NCBI GenBank assembly: GCA_018667995.1
Contig: JABIQT010000525.1
Location: 1-5,307, forward strand
Origin: Candidatus Latescibacterota bacterium
GTDB taxonomy: Bacteria; JAAXHH01; JABIQT01
Direction: 5' to 3'
DNA length: 5,307 bases
Positions 1 through 5,307 of this stretch are shown piece after piece. Position numbers and translations under genes: made by a program. The notes below the pieces were generated by a model. It did not search any database, was not told the DNA's origin, and was given only the letters and a program-made list of their open reading frames with translations. Within the stretch, counting starts at the first letter, position 1, and each line of letters opens with the position of its first letter.

Positions 1-231
1 CAGGTTAACGCCATCGAAACGAAAGACACCCCATCCGTCAGAACCGAACCAGAGATATCCTTGGCTGTCCTGCACCATGGATAGCACACGAATAGAGGCC
101 AGCTGGTCCGGAAGTCCAAACCTTTGCCAATGTCCGGTTCCTGCATCAGGCTTTGCAAAGGTGGGCACCGACACCATTGTAACGAGAATGATTGTGCGTA
201 GGACTCTATTGTAGAAGCATATCATCTGCAT
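1..231 (-). CDS. Two-component regulator propeller (Reg_prop) protein, N-terminal fragment
   Basis: Only the first 77 codons lie in the window; the gene continues past the left edge. From the ATG at 231 the protein begins with a Sec-type signal peptide: an Arg-containing N-region, a hydrophobic core TIILVTMVSV, and a likely cleavage after TFA near residue 26. It is therefore probably exported or membrane-anchored. Residues 52-77 (VLSMVQDSQGYLWFGSDGWG followed by VFRFDG) match the first blade of a Reg_prop beta-propeller, whose hallmark is the x-D-x-x-G-x-LWxGt-x-x-G-l-x-r-f/yDG pattern. In this family a periplasmic double propeller usually precedes a Y_Y_Y domain, one membrane helix and a cytoplasmic kinase, cyclase, GGDEF or DNA-binding output; which one is present here cannot be seen. 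The frame is open upstream to a stop at 271-273. A second ATG at 223-225 is an alternative start: AGGG at 236-239 lies 4 bases from the first ATG and 10 from the second. The gene follows the cyclase gene by 167 bp on the same strand. Confidence 0.85.
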   Translation of the reverse strand, partial: MQMICFYNRVLRTIILVTMVSVPTFAKPDAGTGHWQRFGLPDQLASIRVLSMVQDSQGYLWFGSDGWGVFRFDGVNL

Positions 232-375
232 GCTGCCCTGTCCGATTCGAGCGTAGCAACTAGCGTGCACTCAATTTACGGGTACCAAGCTCAGTCAAGG
301 AATGTGGTGACCGGGCCATTCTCCGAAACAAATTCCTGTGTTATTGGACGCCAGAAATTACACTATAGAACCCCA

Positions 376-398: not shown

Positions 399-2396
399 TC
401 ATCTCTTTTTCATCATTCGTATAGTGGTGCCTTTTTTACCGGATCGTACCTCGACTTCATCCATCATCTCTTCCATAAGCTTCAGGCCCCAACCACGCTT
501 AAGCAGTGTTTCCCGTGATGCACGTGCCCGAAGTTGGTCACGCGTGCTGTCTGCCTCAAATCCGTCCCCAAAGTCCTGTATCAGAACGACCAGGTCGTCT
601 TCCATTGAAATACTGATATGAAACTTGCGGTCCTTGCTGTTACTGTGCTCAATGGCGTTGATGCAGGCTTCAATCAGAGCCAGACGGACTTCCTCGACCT
701 TCGTGGGAGGAAGGCCCATGAATTCTGCTACTGCAGCCGCCGTCTGTCCGGCTGTAAGCTCCATGTCCGGTATCATTGGCAAGTTAAGCTCGATCACTTG
801 GGTTGTGCGATTACCAGTTTGATCCCTCTCAATGGCTATGGCCTCCTCACTCGATATTCTTGGGCCTAACAGCTCGTATACCGGTACTGGATCGGTTTTT
901 CCCTTCATGCGGATGGTACGAAATGCCCTTGTGTGAAACTGGACTTGAACCACCGGATGGATCTCGTCGCTGATCAAAATCTGACCGGCATCGGCGATAT
1001 CGACTAGGCGGGCGGCCAAATTCACGGAATCACCTATGACCGTATATTCCATCCTTTGACGTGCGCCTACGTTACCAGCCAGAACGGGCCCCGAGCTGAT
1101 ACCGATCCCCATACCGAGTGGCTCCTTGCCCTTGACCGTCCTTCGTTCATTCAGTATCTCAAGGGCAATGCGCATATCCAGTACGGTACTTAGTGCGCGG
1201 TTCATTTTGTCGTCAAAGTCAACGGGGGCTCCAAATATGATCATCAGCCCGTCCCCCGCGATACGACTGAGCGTCCCGTTGTGGCGGGTAATGACCTCCA
1301 CCATGGATTCATAGTATTCATTCAGCATGGCCATGGTGGCCTCAGGGCCTTGCTCCGCCTGCATTCGCGTGAATCCACGGAGATCCGTGAAAACGACCAC
1401 GACATCGCGGTGCTCGCCTCCGAGTGCAGGCTGTTCCTCCTGACGCAATGCCATATCGACAACAGTATCACTCACGTAGCGTTTGAAAATACTCCGTATA
1501 CGACGCTCCTCGGAAAGATCGTCCAACGCTATAACCAATCCCTGCAGCTTGCCTGATTCGCTGTGCAAAGGAGCAACACTCATGTCTATCACCAGTTCCC
1601 GACCGTTGACCTTACACTCCATTTGAGATGTGTGGTTGGACATGCCTGATCCCTCTGCGGATTTGATCAGGTCGAGGATCTCGTCATTGTCGAGATAATC
1701 GGCCAGACTATGGATCAGCGTACCCACAAGCATCGCCGGCCTCGTATTGAGTATACGCTCTGCGGCCTCGTTAGCAGAAACGATGTACCCGTCCAGGCCA
1801 GTCGTGATTACCCCGCTCGCGATACTGGTCATCACGTTGTGACTATAACGCTCGGCAGCTCGTTTCTCCTCCACGAGTCGGTTATTATAGATACATACCG
1901 CAATGTGACGGGCCATGTTAGCCAGGAGAGACAGATCCTGCTCGCCAAATGGAAGGAGATGGAATCTTTCACTGACGCTGAGGATGCCCACGAGGTGATC
2001 TTGGGAAACCAGGGGCACCCACATATATGACCGTAAGTTATCGTAACATCGATCCCGTTCGCCGTTGAGGTCTGGGATTAGTCTTTGAAGCTCATCGCGT
2101 AGGAGAGGACGGTTTTCGTCTGTGAGACTCTGGACCCAGGTACTATCGAGTGCCAGGTTGGGTTGGACATCATCGAGGCCTCGCGCGGCCTCTGTTGTAA
2201 GTATTTTCGAGGTGGGGTCGTACAGTAAAACAGCGCCCTTTGAGATTGTCAGGACGCCCGAAACGAGATGTAGTAGCGATCGGAGTGTGGCGTTGAAGTC
2301 ACCTGTCGAGGTGAGTGTCTCAGCGATGTCGTTCAACGAAGAAAGGCTGAACATCAGCCGATCTACGTGGTCCTGAGATGGCGGATCCTCACTCAC
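399..2396 (-). CDS. GAF-PAS class III nucleotide cyclase fused to an RsbW-like ATPase domain
   Basis: This is a 665-residue soluble multidomain enzyme with no membrane segment. Its domains are GAF (about 18-175), PAS (about 183-295), a short transducer helix (about 300-318), class III adenylate/guanylate cyclase (about 328-510) and a HATPase_c_2 domain (about 535-662). The cyclase motifs are complete for homodimeric catalysis: metal-binding Asp338 in FTDLRGFT and Asp382 in AGDGLM, and transition-state residues Asn459 and Arg463 in YTVIGDSVNLAARL. The base-recognition pair is Arg378 (usually Lys) and Thr452; Thr is typical of bacterial adenylate cyclases, so cAMP is the likeliest product. The ATPase resembles the anti-sigma kinases RsbW and SpoIIAB rather than histidine kinases: N-box EACINAIEH (Glu576, Asn580, His584), G1 DFGDG (608-612), and GWGLKLM (635-641), with no phosphoacceptor His domain. 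The start is GTG, overlapping the TGA of the upstream kinase gene as GTGA, which implies translational coupling. GAF and PAS presumably sense small ligands. The fusion of a cyclase to an RsbW-type domain is unusual. Confidence 0.93.
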   Translation of the reverse strand: MSEDPPSQDHVDRLMFSLSSLNDIAETLTSTGDFNATLRSLLHLVSGVLTISKGAVLLYDPTSKILTTEAARGLDDVQPNLALDSTWVQSLTDENRPLLRDELQRLIPDLNGERDRCYDNLRSYMWVPLVSQDHLVGILSVSERFHLLPFGEQDLSLLANMARHIAVCIYNNRLVEEKRAAERYSHNVMTSIASGVITTGLDGYIVSANEAAERILNTRPAMLVGTLIHSLADYLDNDEILDLIKSAEGSGMSNHTSQMECKVNGRELVIDMSVAPLHSESGKLQGLVIALDDLSEERRIRSIFKRYVSDTVVDMALRQEEQPALGGEHRDVVVVFTDLRGFTRMQAEQGPEATMAMLNEYYESMVEVITRHNGTLSRIAGDGLMIIFGAPVDFDDKMNRALSTVLDMRIALEILNERRTVKGKEPLGMGIGISSGPVLAGNVGARQRMEYTVIGDSVNLAARLVDIADAGQILISDEIHPVVQVQFHTRAFRTIRMKGKTDPVPVYELLGPRISSEEAIAIERDQTGNRTTQVIELNLPMIPDMELTAGQTAAAVAEFMGLPPTKVEEVRLALIEACINAIEHSNSKDRKFHISISMEDDLVVLIQDFGDGFEADSTRDQLRARASRETLLKRGWGLKLMEEMMDEVEVRSGKKGTTIRMMKKR

Positions 2397-4126
2397 TGTA
2401 CTCGGGGGCGGACGATTACGGCCGCAAGTGTGCGCCTGAATTCCTCCAGACTCACAGGTTTAACAAGGACAGCGTCTACGTTCTTGTCCGGCTTACCATC
2501 CGGATCTTCATCGCCGGTAACCAGCACTATCGGCTTTCTGGGGGCGATCTCTTTAATGGACTGAGCCAAGCTGTGGCCATCCATGTCGGGCATCAGGCGG
2601 TCCGTAAGCACCGCATCGAATTGTCCCTTGTAGAACTTTTCAAGTGCCTGCCGTCCATCCTCGGCCACAGTGGCCTTGTGGCCATCGGATATCAGGAAGT
2701 TCTTCATGATTTCTCGCTGAATAGGATCATCGTCCGCGACTAGCACGTGTACAGGTTGCAGGAGCACGTTCTGCTCGTCCTGCATGTCGGATGAAGGTGG
2801 TGGCTCGGCCACGGGAAACCGCATGCGAAACAGTGTTCCCACTCCGGGTTCACTCTCAATGTCAAGTGTCCCATGGTGTCTCTGAATGATACCGAAGACC
2901 ATGGCCAGCCCCATTCCCGTTCCCTTGTCGCCCTTCGTAGAGAAGAACGGTTCCAGGCACTGTCTGCGCACTTCCTCGGGCATGCCTGTACCCGTATCTC
3001 CCACCTCCAATATCACATAACGCTGATCTTCTTCGACTTCCTGCCTGGTCCGAAACGTGATGGATCCGTTTTCATTCATAGCGTCGACGGCGTTAAAGAC
3101 AAGATTGATGAACATCTCCCGTAAATCCGCATCATCACCGGGAATACTGGGGATGTCATTAAGATCGGTCTCCATGTGTATGGTAATTCCAACCTCTCTT
3201 GCCTGGGTATGCCATCGCGGCCTCGTAATATCGATGGACTGAGGGATCACGTCGTTCAGGTTAATGGGGAAGATCTTATTGCCTTCCTCCCTGGGACGAT
3301 AGAATCCGCGAAGACGCCGGATGATGTGCGTCGCGTCCTTTGCTGCTGTATTTATGGTACTCAGATCGTGGAGGATCTTGTCCTTGTCATCAAGCATTTT
3401 TGGAAAGAGCGTCCAGAGTTCTGTGTATCCAAGGATTGAAGCGATGGAGTTATTGACGTCGTGCACCACACCACTGGCCATCTGGCCTAATGCGCGCATA
3501 CGTTCCGCCTGAATGATGTGTTCGTGTGCTTCCTGCAGTTCGTTCAGGGTGTCAGTCAGGCGCTCATTGCTATACTGAAGATTCGCATATAGCCTTACAT
3601 TCGAAACAGCTATTCCCGCCTGATTTGCAAAGGCGGACACCAGATGTTCATCTTCTTCCGTAAACGGTGCGACATCGTTTTCTCTGCTCTCCCGGTCCAT
3701 CACACCCAAGACGCCGATCATCTCGTCGCGGGCTTTAAGGGGAATAACCATGAGATGCCGGCATCCGGCGGCCGGCGCATTGATGTCGTTGAGTACTCGG
3801 GCCTTGCCCGCGGAAATCACCGAATCGAAGATATCATCCTCTGTCGCCAACTGTAGTTCCAGAATGGCCTTGTCTTCGATTCCGAAGGTAGCAGCCGTAT
3901 TCAGCTGATTGTCGTCCTGGCTTTTCAGTAGCAGAAACGCACCCTTCAAATCCAGCAGAATAGCGAGGCGAGTGAGAATCTCGTCTGTGAGTTCATCAAG
4001 GTCCAAGACGGATGAGATGGCAGCGCCTACATCGAAGAGTGTTTCCAGTTCCAGGATCTTTCGGATCAATGTCAGATCAGTTGTATCCGGGTCCGAGCCG
4101 CTGCTACGGGATGCTTCGTTGTTCAT
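2393..4126 (-). CDS. GAF-containing hybrid histidine kinase with C-terminal receiver
   Basis: This is a 577-residue cytoplasmic sensor kinase with no signal peptide or membrane helix. A GAF domain spans about 27-178, followed by a short coiled-coil linker (about 180-208) and a HisKA dimerisation domain with phosphoacceptor His222 in VVHDVNNS. The HATPase (about 285-438) has N-box Asn341 and Asn345 in NLVFNAVDAM, G1 DTGTGM (377-382), F-box EPFFSTK (392-398) and G2 GTGMGL (402-407). After a Pro-rich linker, a receiver spans about 459-572, with acidic pocket DDD at 465-467, phosphoacceptor Asp509 in LTDRLMPDMDG, switch Thr537 and Lys556 in VKP. All catalytic residues for autophosphorylation and transfer to Asp509 are present. 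The H-box has HDxNN instead of the commoner HExxN, a known variant. The start ATG is preceded by AGGA at 4135-4138, 8 bases away. It overlaps the cyclase gene by 4 bases and heads the operon. No Hpt protein or separate response regulator is visible, so the phosphorelay target is unknown; the cyclase or the divergent activator are candidates by proximity only. Confidence 0.95.
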   Translation of the reverse strand: MNNEASRSSGSDPDTTDLTLIRKILELETLFDVGAAISSVLDLDELTDEILTRLAILLDLKGAFLLLKSQDDNQLNTAATFGIEDKAILELQLATEDDIFDSVISAGKARVLNDINAPAAGCRHLMVIPLKARDEMIGVLGVMDRESRENDVAPFTEEDEHLVSAFANQAGIAVSNVRLYANLQYSNERLTDTLNELQEAHEHIIQAERMRALGQMASGVVHDVNNSIASILGYTELWTLFPKMLDDKDKILHDLSTINTAAKDATHIIRRLRGFYRPREEGNKIFPINLNDVIPQSIDITRPRWHTQAREVGITIHMETDLNDIPSIPGDDADLREMFINLVFNAVDAMNENGSITFRTRQEVEEDQRYVILEVGDTGTGMPEEVRRQCLEPFFSTKGDKGTGMGLAMVFGIIQRHHGTLDIESEPGVGTLFRMRFPVAEPPPSSDMQDEQNVLLQPVHVLVADDDPIQREIMKNFLISDGHKATVAEDGRQALEKFYKGQFDAVLTDRLMPDMDGHSLAQSIKEIAPRKPIVLVTGDEDPDGKPDKNVDAVLVKPVSLEEFRRTLAAVIVRPRVQ

Positions 4127-4188
4127 TATGACATTCCTGAAATTGAGGTCGTACCGTCCAACTGTAAATTCTCAGGGGGTGCAATGTC

Positions 4189-4219
4189 ATTATTGTGTAT
4201 GATTTAGCTGGAAAGTCAA
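4189..4219 (-). promoter_or_regulatory. Candidate sigma-70-type promoter of the kinase-cyclase operon
   Basis: On the minus strand a TTGACT hexamer (4214-4219) is followed after 19 bases by AATAAT (4189-4194), which matches five of six -10 consensus positions. The spacer is two bases longer than optimal. Transcription would start near 4182, leaving a leader of about 56 bases before the kinase ATG at 4126. This is sequence resemblance only. Confidence 0.35.
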
Positions 4220-4232
4220 AGAAAATGTTGAC
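4215..4232. promoter_or_regulatory. Inverted repeat GTCAA-N8-TTGAC between divergent promoters (candidate operator)
   Basis: A perfect 5-bp inverted repeat with an 8-bp AT-rich spacer lies in the middle of the divergent intergenic region. Each arm is also most of a -35-like hexamer, one facing each gene. A dimeric regulator bound here would cover both -35 elements and control both transcripts at once. The symmetry might equally be a by-product of two back-to-back -35 boxes. It does not match the CRP consensus TGTGA-N6-TCACA. Confidence 0.35.
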
Positions 4233-4257
4233 AAGACCGATGGGGCCGGGGTATGGA
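4228..4257 (+). promoter_or_regulatory. Candidate sigma-70-type promoter of the sigma-54 activator gene
   Basis: A consensus TTGACA (4228-4233) is followed after 18 bases by TATGGA (4252-4257), a poor -10 matching three of six positions. Transcription would begin near 4264. That would put the alternative ATG at 4253 upstream of the transcript start, supporting translation from the ATG at 4295. A perfect -35 with a weak -10 is common at promoters needing an activator. Confidence 0.4.
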
Positions 4258-4282
4258 TAGGGAAACAACTTCCCCGAAAAAT

Positions 4283-4286
4283 GGAG
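4283..4286 (+). promoter_or_regulatory. Ribosome binding site deciding the start of the sigma-54 activator
   Basis: GGAG lies 8 bases before the ATG at 4295, an ideal distance. The in-frame ATG at 4253 has only G-rich sequence (GGGGCCGGGGT) before it, with no purine-mixed Shine-Dalgarno core at good spacing. This favours 4295 as the start. Confidence 0.55.
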
Positions 4287-4294
4287 CAGGATAC

Positions 4295-5307
4295 ATGGAG
4301 AGTCTGACGGCATTCCTGAAGTCTCAGGAGTATCTCAAGAACATACCGGACAATATCGTTCAAGAGATCATCCGAAGTGTGCAAAGAATAGAGTTATCCC
4401 CCGATGAGGTCCTGTTCAACGAGGGGGACCTGGGTGACGCACTTTACATCGTTCTGGAAGGTACGCTCAGCATCGAACATGAAGGGGTTCAGCTGGTCAC
4501 TCGGGGTCCGGGTGAGCTGGTCGGTGAATTTGCCCTGATAGATCAGCACGCGCGTAGTGCCACCGTCGTTGCACAGGGCCCGGTCAAGTTACTGAAGTGG
4601 ACGCGAGACGACTTCAACGATGCGCTTGGAAAGAACCTGGATTTGGTGCGTGGAATCCTCAGCACCATAACGGAGAAATTGCGCCAGAGTACCGCAGCCC
4701 AGGCCGGTGTGCTGCAAATGGACGAGGCCGGATCTCTCGAATCACTCGACCTCAAAGGGACTGATTGGGTTCCGAAGCTGACCGTGGTCTATCGGAGCAG
4801 CGCTATGCACCAGATATTTGACGAGGTACAACGCATCAGAATCGGAAAGAGCAGTGTGTTGATAACCGGAGAGTCCGGGACAGGCAAGGAATTAGTCGCA
4901 AGAGCGCTTCATGCCAATAGCCCCAATAGTAAGGGGCAATTCGTGGCCCTGAACTGTGGGGCTCTGCCGGAGAGCCTGGCTGAGTCGGAGCTATTCGGAC
5001 ATGATAAAGGCGCTTATACAGGGGCCGACAAGGATCGACCAGGAAAGATTGAAATCGCCCAGGGCGGCACACTATTTCTTGATGAAATAGGTGAATTGCC
5101 CACCACTCTTCAGGTTAAACTGCTGCGCGTCCTTGATGATGGACGTGTGCTTAGAATAGGTGGCGACACACCCAAAGAGGTGAAGTTCCGGCTGGTGGCC
5201 GCTACCAATAGAAATTTGCCGCAGGAGATCGAAGAGGGCAATTTTCGCGAAGATCTGTACTACCGTCTGGCCGTGATAGGAATACATATTCCACCGTTAC
5301 GCGAGCG
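4295..5307 (+). CDS. Sigma-54-dependent activator with N-terminal cyclic-nucleotide-binding domain (partial)
   Basis: The first 337 codons are present; the reading frame is open to the right edge. Residues about 10-130 form a CRP-type cyclic-nucleotide-binding domain: a beta-barrel (VLFNEGDLGDALYIVLEG, 39-56), then a phosphate-binding cassette GEFALIDQHARSATV (77-91). In the CRP/PKA family the equivalents of Glu78 and Arg87 bind the ribose and cyclic phosphate. A helical stretch (103-132) resembles the C-helix. After a linker, the AAA+ sigma-54 activation domain starts near 162. It has Walker A GESGTGKE (192-199), the sigma-54 contact loop GAYTGA (239-244, a Tyr variant of GAFTGA), Walker B TLFLDE (259-264), sensor I in AATNRN (302-307), and arginine fingers Arg318 and Arg324 in FREDLYYRL. 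The rest of the AAA+ domain and a Fis-type helix-turn-helix are expected beyond the edge. The N-terminal input replaces the usual receiver, GAF or FHA domain. The gene is divergent from the kinase-cyclase operon, so the cyclase product is its likely ligand. Start 4295 is chosen for its GGAG site; 4253 would add 14 residues. Confidence 0.93.
   Translation, partial: MESLTAFLKSQEYLKNIPDNIVQEIIRSVQRIELSPDEVLFNEGDLGDALYIVLEGTLSIEHEGVQLVTRGPGELVGEFALIDQHARSATVVAQGPVKLLKWTRDDFNDALGKNLDLVRGILSTITEKLRQSTAAQAGVLQMDEAGSLESLDLKGTDWVPKLTVVYRSSAMHQIFDEVQRIRIGKSSVLITGESGTGKELVARALHANSPNSKGQFVALNCGALPESLAESELFGHDKGAYTGADKDRPGKIEIAQGGTLFLDEIGELPTTLQVKLLRVLDDGRVLRIGGDTPKEVKFRLVAATNRNLPQEIEEGNFREDLYYRLAVIGIHIPPLRE

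Follow-up and report, generated by a model that had tools for sequence, protein, structure and literature searches.

A cyclic-nucleotide-binding domain joined to a sigma-54 AAA+ domain, encoded divergently from a kinase-cyclase operon in a Latescibacterota genome

In well-studied bacteria, cAMP reaches transcription via CRP-type proteins and sigma-70. In these proteins a cyclic-nucleotide-binding (CNB) domain, followed by a long helix, controls an HTH_Crp domain. Promoters dependent on sigma-54 are served by enhancer-binding proteins (EBPs) of the NtrC, NorR and NifA type, which combine an AAA+ core bearing Walker motifs and a sigma-54 contact loop with an N-terminal regulatory domain. A survey published in 2011 mentions about 136 EBP architectures in Pfam, and its text does not name a CNB-sigma54 combination (PMC3162934). 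The inputs given in a recent review are receiver and PRD domains, PAS, V4R and ACT domains, and GAF domains, CNB not being among them; according to the same review, little is understood of how most of these inputs gate the AAA+ ring (PMC7175178). Two further described systems are close to the locus reported here, namely the class III cyclases of the Cya/CyaB type (PDB 6fht, 2w01, 3r5g) and the anti-sigma kinases RsbW and SpoIIAB.

The stretch of DNA analysed (5307 bp, hereafter the window) is the whole of contig C1123 of a fragmented, metagenome-assembled genome of 6.06 Mb, 85% complete and 4% contaminated. Open reading frames and a domain search delimit three long genes: a hybrid histidine kinase and a cyclase on the minus strand, and an activator on the plus strand (Table 1). 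The initial annotation, a cyclase operon divergent from a CNB-sigma54 activator, is thereby borne out as far as gene anatomy goes. We also asked whether the contig might be a contaminant and think this unlikely: the activator and the histidine kinase both have their nearest relatives in the same order. The comparison set for the phylum consisted of 16 Latescibacterota genomes, the host genome included, all within one order.

Table 1. Position of the genes, domains and sites of the window
Feature	Position	Strand	Remark
GAF-PAS-class III nucleotidyl cyclase-RsbW-type HATPase, 665 aa	399..2396	-	
RsbW/SpoIIAB-type kinase domain, HATPase_c_2	408..749	-	E=4.4e-22
Class III cyclase catalytic domain	891..1415	-	Guanylate_cyc E=1.3e-29; D338, D382, N459, R463 intact
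Codon for Arg378, position of purine-reading Lys	1263..1265	-	
GAF-HisKA-HATPase_c-receiver hybrid histidine kinase	2393..4126	-	
GTGA, 4-bp overlap of kinase stop and cyclase start	2393..2396	-	
Divergent intergenic region	4127..4294	.	168 bp between starts
CNB-Sigma54_activat enhancer-binding protein (activator)	4295..5307	+	C-terminus cut by contig end
Cyclic-nucleotide-binding domain, Pfam cNMP_binding	4388..4633	+	E=4.6e-19
Phosphate-binding cassette region GPGELVGEFALIDQHARSATV, Glu78 + Arg87	4496..4570	+	
Sigma-54 interaction AAA+ domain, Walker A/B	4787..5284	+	Sigma54_activat E=2.5e-68
Sigma-54 contact loop GAYTGA, Tyr variant of GAFTGA	5009..5026	+	Orthologue: GSFTGS

The cNMP_binding and Sigma54_activat domains of the activator share one reading frame. 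This frame is open from ATG 4253; ATG 4295, which is preceded by GGAG and aligns with the start region of the orthologue described below, was taken as the start. The initial annotation had reported intact catalytic residues in the cyclase, intact ligand residues in the CNB cassette and intact sigma-54 activation motifs. The residues of the cyclase (D338, D382, N459, R463) and of the cassette (Glu78, Arg87) were all verified, and in the AAA+ domain both Walker motifs are indeed intact (A, GESGTGKE; B, LFLDEI), with FREDLYYRL in the R-finger region; the contact loop, however, reads GAYTGA and not GAFTGA. A Tyr in this loop is uncommon and occurs naturally in a small number of EBPs (PMC7057263). 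It was also met in two other loci of this analysis (L059 and L061), and we counted the variant as a sigma-54 contact loop. The activator thus resembles the NtrC, NorR and NifA type in its AAA+ core, its loop and its N-terminal regulatory position, and differs from it by the CNB input and the Tyr of the loop. It shows no DNA-binding domain because the contig stops within the gene. Its likeness to CRP lies in a CNB domain controlling transcription and in a predicted long helix after that domain, the model being confident only in the CNB part; where CRP-type proteins carry HTH_Crp and work with sigma-70, the activator carries a sigma-54 AAA+ ATPase. The circuit proposed in the initial annotation calls for rpoN in the host genome, and the gene is present there as a C-terminal fragment: contig C643 ends in it, and it includes the RpoN box VKRRTVTKYR. 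The same genome gave 22 matches to sigma-54 activators.

A search of genomes for proteins combining cNMP_binding and Sigma54_activat, suggested in the initial annotation, returned one more. This orthologue (L075 6669-8261, contig C266 of G001) is complete and comes from JACQVL01, a groundwater Latescibacterota metagenome-assembled genome belonging to another family of the same order. It is colinear with the activator and 59% identical to it over the shared part, with the architecture CNB-AAA-lid-HTH_8 (HTH_8 E=1.1e-13); the likeness to NtrC-type proteins in HTH_8 is therefore a feature of the orthologue. The existence of a colinear, complete orthologue in another family rules out that the CNB-AAA+ fusion is an assembly artefact. 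No further colinear CNB-sigma54 match was found in the 16 genomes of the phylum, none in 384 mostly diverse genomes and, at a strict cut-off, no match spanning the CNB domain in 195 genomes of a second, EBP-rich phylum. A scan of 84,980 species with the CNB region gave 80 loci, mostly other CNB proteins, among which an AAA+ domain in the same frame occurred only in the one orthologue. Eight EBPs with an early profile match were inspected by eye for a diverged CNB domain; their N-termini were GAF-like or receiver-like, with no CNB motif. As these searches either scored few candidates per genome or relied on close patterns, diverged CNB-EBPs may have been missed. No CNB-sigma54 protein was described in the literature searched, many subscription papers and InterPro lying outside that scope. 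We conclude that the architecture is rare, with two members known from the data searched. It is new as an architecture in the papers searched, sigma-54 EBPs as a class being already known.

Conservation between the two orthologues is uneven: 21 of 25 residues of the cassette are identical (84%), compared to 30 of 71 in the rest of the CNB domain (42%) and 110 of 161 in the AAA+ domain. The greater conservation of the pocket than of the rest of the domain favours a real ligand. Since the cassette is conserved in CNB domains generally, it supports ligand binding and does not prove it; likewise, Glu and Arg are kept in most CNB domains, so that the presence of Glu78 and Arg87 says little in itself. 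The closest solved relatives of the activator's CNB domain are true cyclic-nucleotide binders (PKG, the regulatory subunits of PKA, and EPAC). An AlphaFold2 model computed on two sequences had a mean pLDDT of 45.6 and was usable only for the CNB domain and the start of the next helix, and not for AAA+. Sensors of the CRP/FNR superfamily have switched ligands, and on this precedent the CNB domain could bind another small ligand, or be a protein-interaction or dimerisation module as in many CRP/FNR-type regulators. We regard this as unlikely here, given that Glu78 and Arg87 are retained and that, within the domain, the two orthologues agree best in the cassette.

The reading that we favour, and hold to be reasonably probable, is that the activator is a cyclic-nucleotide-gated sigma-54 EBP reading a shared pool. 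Once cAMP (or cGMP) had bound in the N-terminal cassette, the long helix that follows it would reorient and so permit or block assembly of the AAA+ hexamer. This hexamer, using ATP, would remodel the sigma-54 holoenzyme; contact with the enhancer would be made by a C-terminal HTH_8, a domain known from the orthologue alone. The ligand would probably be drawn from a cellular pool made by several class III cyclases, and the divergent operon of hybrid kinase and cyclase-RsbW protein would be a separate sensory module, which may feed both this pool and sigma-factor partner switching. What the sequences show directly are the domains, the intact motifs, the selectively conserved CNB pocket and the presence of rpoN; nucleotide binding, the direction of gating, the target genes and any role of the neighbouring cyclase are inferred. 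Several points count against a gated activator: the contact loop is non-canonical in both orthologues (GAYTGA, GSFTGS), the activator gene is cut short of its DNA-binding domain, sigma-54 promoter matches in the window do not exceed chance, Glu and Arg are common to most CNB domains, and the architecture has just two known members. If true, a CNB domain acting directly on the sigma-54 machinery would give cyclic nucleotides another way to promoter opening, and the protein would offer a naturally occurring fusion in which to study the control of an AAA+ ring by a ligand domain.

The cyclase shares with the Cya/CyaB type its domain family and its metal and transition-state residues: in an alignment of 31 cyclases, the two metal Asp and the transition-state Asn and Arg do not vary in any sequence that covers the position. 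It differs at Arg378, the place of the purine-reading Lys, which aligns with Lys in 6fht and Glu in 2w01, two cyclases of known structure. This position is Lys in 29 of 30 homologues and Asp in the remaining one, so that Arg is unique among the 31 cyclases compared; the homologues comprise the 11 other cyclases of the phylum (all Lys) and 19 further close homologues (18 Lys, 1 Asp). At the second purine position stands Thr (Thr452), as is usual. The combination of Arg378 and Thr452 departs from the adenylate cyclase signature (Lys with Asp, Thr or Ser), and the product is not readable from the sequence. Membership of class III stands, and cyclase activity is possible since the metal and transition-state residues are complete.

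Behind the GAF, PAS and cyclase domains, the protein ends in a domain for which RsbW and SpoIIAB are the best family matches; such a fusion distinguishes it both from the anti-sigma kinases and from the other cyclase matches examined, and no colinear cyclase-RsbW fusion was present among the matches listed from 384 genomes. The N and G boxes of HATPase_c_2 are present in the translation (EACINAIEHS, DFGDGFE, GWGLKLMEEMMDEVEV), and the tail is 47% identical to a stand-alone RsbW of the same genome (contig C903). On that contig, a SpoIIE phosphatase, the RsbW kinase and a STAS protein are encoded close together (L234). No STAS partner or sigma factor gene lies within the window. Alternatively, the protein could act chiefly as an RsbW-type kinase under GAF/PAS control, with a cyclase domain that is catalytically weak or makes another product and that serves dimerisation or nucleotide sensing; the activator would then be unrelated to it. 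The HATPase_c_2 match (E=4.4e-22), the RsbW and SpoIIAB family assignment and the likeness to an RsbW that sits with SpoIIE and STAS proteins are in keeping with this, as is the unique Arg378: in the Ma1120 cyclase, exchange of the equivalent Lys for Glu cost about 92% of the adenylate cyclase activity at pH 7.5 (PMC4215837). Nevertheless, Lys to Arg is a conservative change, and the retention of all metal and transition-state residues together with Thr452 argues against a dead cyclase. We hold this possibility to be unlikely.

The kinase gene has full-length orthologues in two other Latescibacterota genomes (55% identity in G011, 53% in G013). From its overlap with the cyclase gene we infer that the translation of the two may be coupled. 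A partial gene at window positions 1-270, which runs off the contig at position 1, shares the strand of the cyclase gene, lies 128 bp downstream and is possibly part of the operon; the 90 residues that it encodes are the beginning of a Reg_prop (beta-propeller) sensor protein. In the intergenic region, one case of an imperfect inverted repeat was noted (ATTATGACATT/AATGTCATTAT, at 4125-4135/4183-4193) and set aside as too short to count. The sigma-54 promoter pattern was likewise discarded as evidence, with 3 matches in the window against 3.9 expected by chance.

Gene order had led the initial annotation to propose that the neighbouring cyclase makes the ligand of the activator. Such a dedicated circuit, in which the nucleotide made by the kinase-cyclase operon switches on the divergent activator, would fit the divergent adjacency with 168 bp between starts, the overlap of the kinase and cyclase genes and the intact metal and transition-state residues. 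The relatives, however, do not repeat the arrangement. The 9.8-kb contig of the orthologous activator carries transporter and other genes, and no cyclase. No full-length cyclase relative was found in the 16 genomes of the phylum, where the protein is matched only by its cyclase domain, its RsbW domain or an N-terminal fragment. Within the reach of their contigs, the kinase orthologues of G011 and G013 lie beside neither a cyclase nor a CNB-EBP. This small sample of relatives thus shows conservation of none of the three adjacencies, and a lack of conserved linkage among homologues is one of the outcomes that the initial annotation itself had named as refuting its proposal. A 128-aa frame of G013 (L243 9183-9566, contig C26), adjoining a Rieske-like protein, is in its N-terminal part 59% identical over 71 residues to the first GAF region of the cyclase; it has the appearance of a remnant gene or of a short relative.

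The content of the host genome also bears on the pairing. It encodes four class III cyclases; the other three, linked to CHASE2, receiver and zinc-ribbon/AAA domains, carry Lys and Thr as their purine residues, as is classical for adenylate cyclases. There are 15 CNB domain matches in about 12 proteins, about ten of them besides the activator, and most keep the Glu/Arg pair. The presence of three further cyclases and about ten further CNB proteins makes adjacency a weak argument for pairing, and a cyclic nucleotide from any of the four cyclases could reach the activator. These genes, together with the RsbW-type tail and Arg378, did not figure in the initial annotation. Considering the missing linkage, the other cyclases and CNB proteins, and the replacement of the purine-reading Lys by Arg, its assignment of the neighbouring cyclase as ligand source is unsupported, and the dedicated circuit appears doubtful; we retain the shared-pool reading.

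Proteins in which a CNB domain is fused to a SpoIIE/PP2C phosphatase were found in the host genome (L076 2566-3729, contig C832) and in G001 (L077 81-1274, contig C176), that is, in two families of the order. They would be a possible direct input of cyclic nucleotides to partner switching and, together with the RsbW tail of the cyclase, suggest by their domain content that cyclic-nucleotide signalling in these bacteria may also be tied to it. A far bolder scheme, which we consider highly improbable, would have one sensory operon govern two kinds of alternative sigma factor at once: the GAF/PAS-sensing cyclase domain would make a cyclic nucleotide gating sigma-54 via the CNB-AAA+ protein, the RsbW domain would phosphorylate a STAS antagonist and so release or capture a sigma-70-type factor, and the CNB-SpoIIE phosphatases encoded elsewhere would close the loop. 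Among the other CNB proteins of the host genome, one (L079 1950-3377, contig C227) joins two CNB domains to 4Fe-4S ferredoxin-type domains located behind them.
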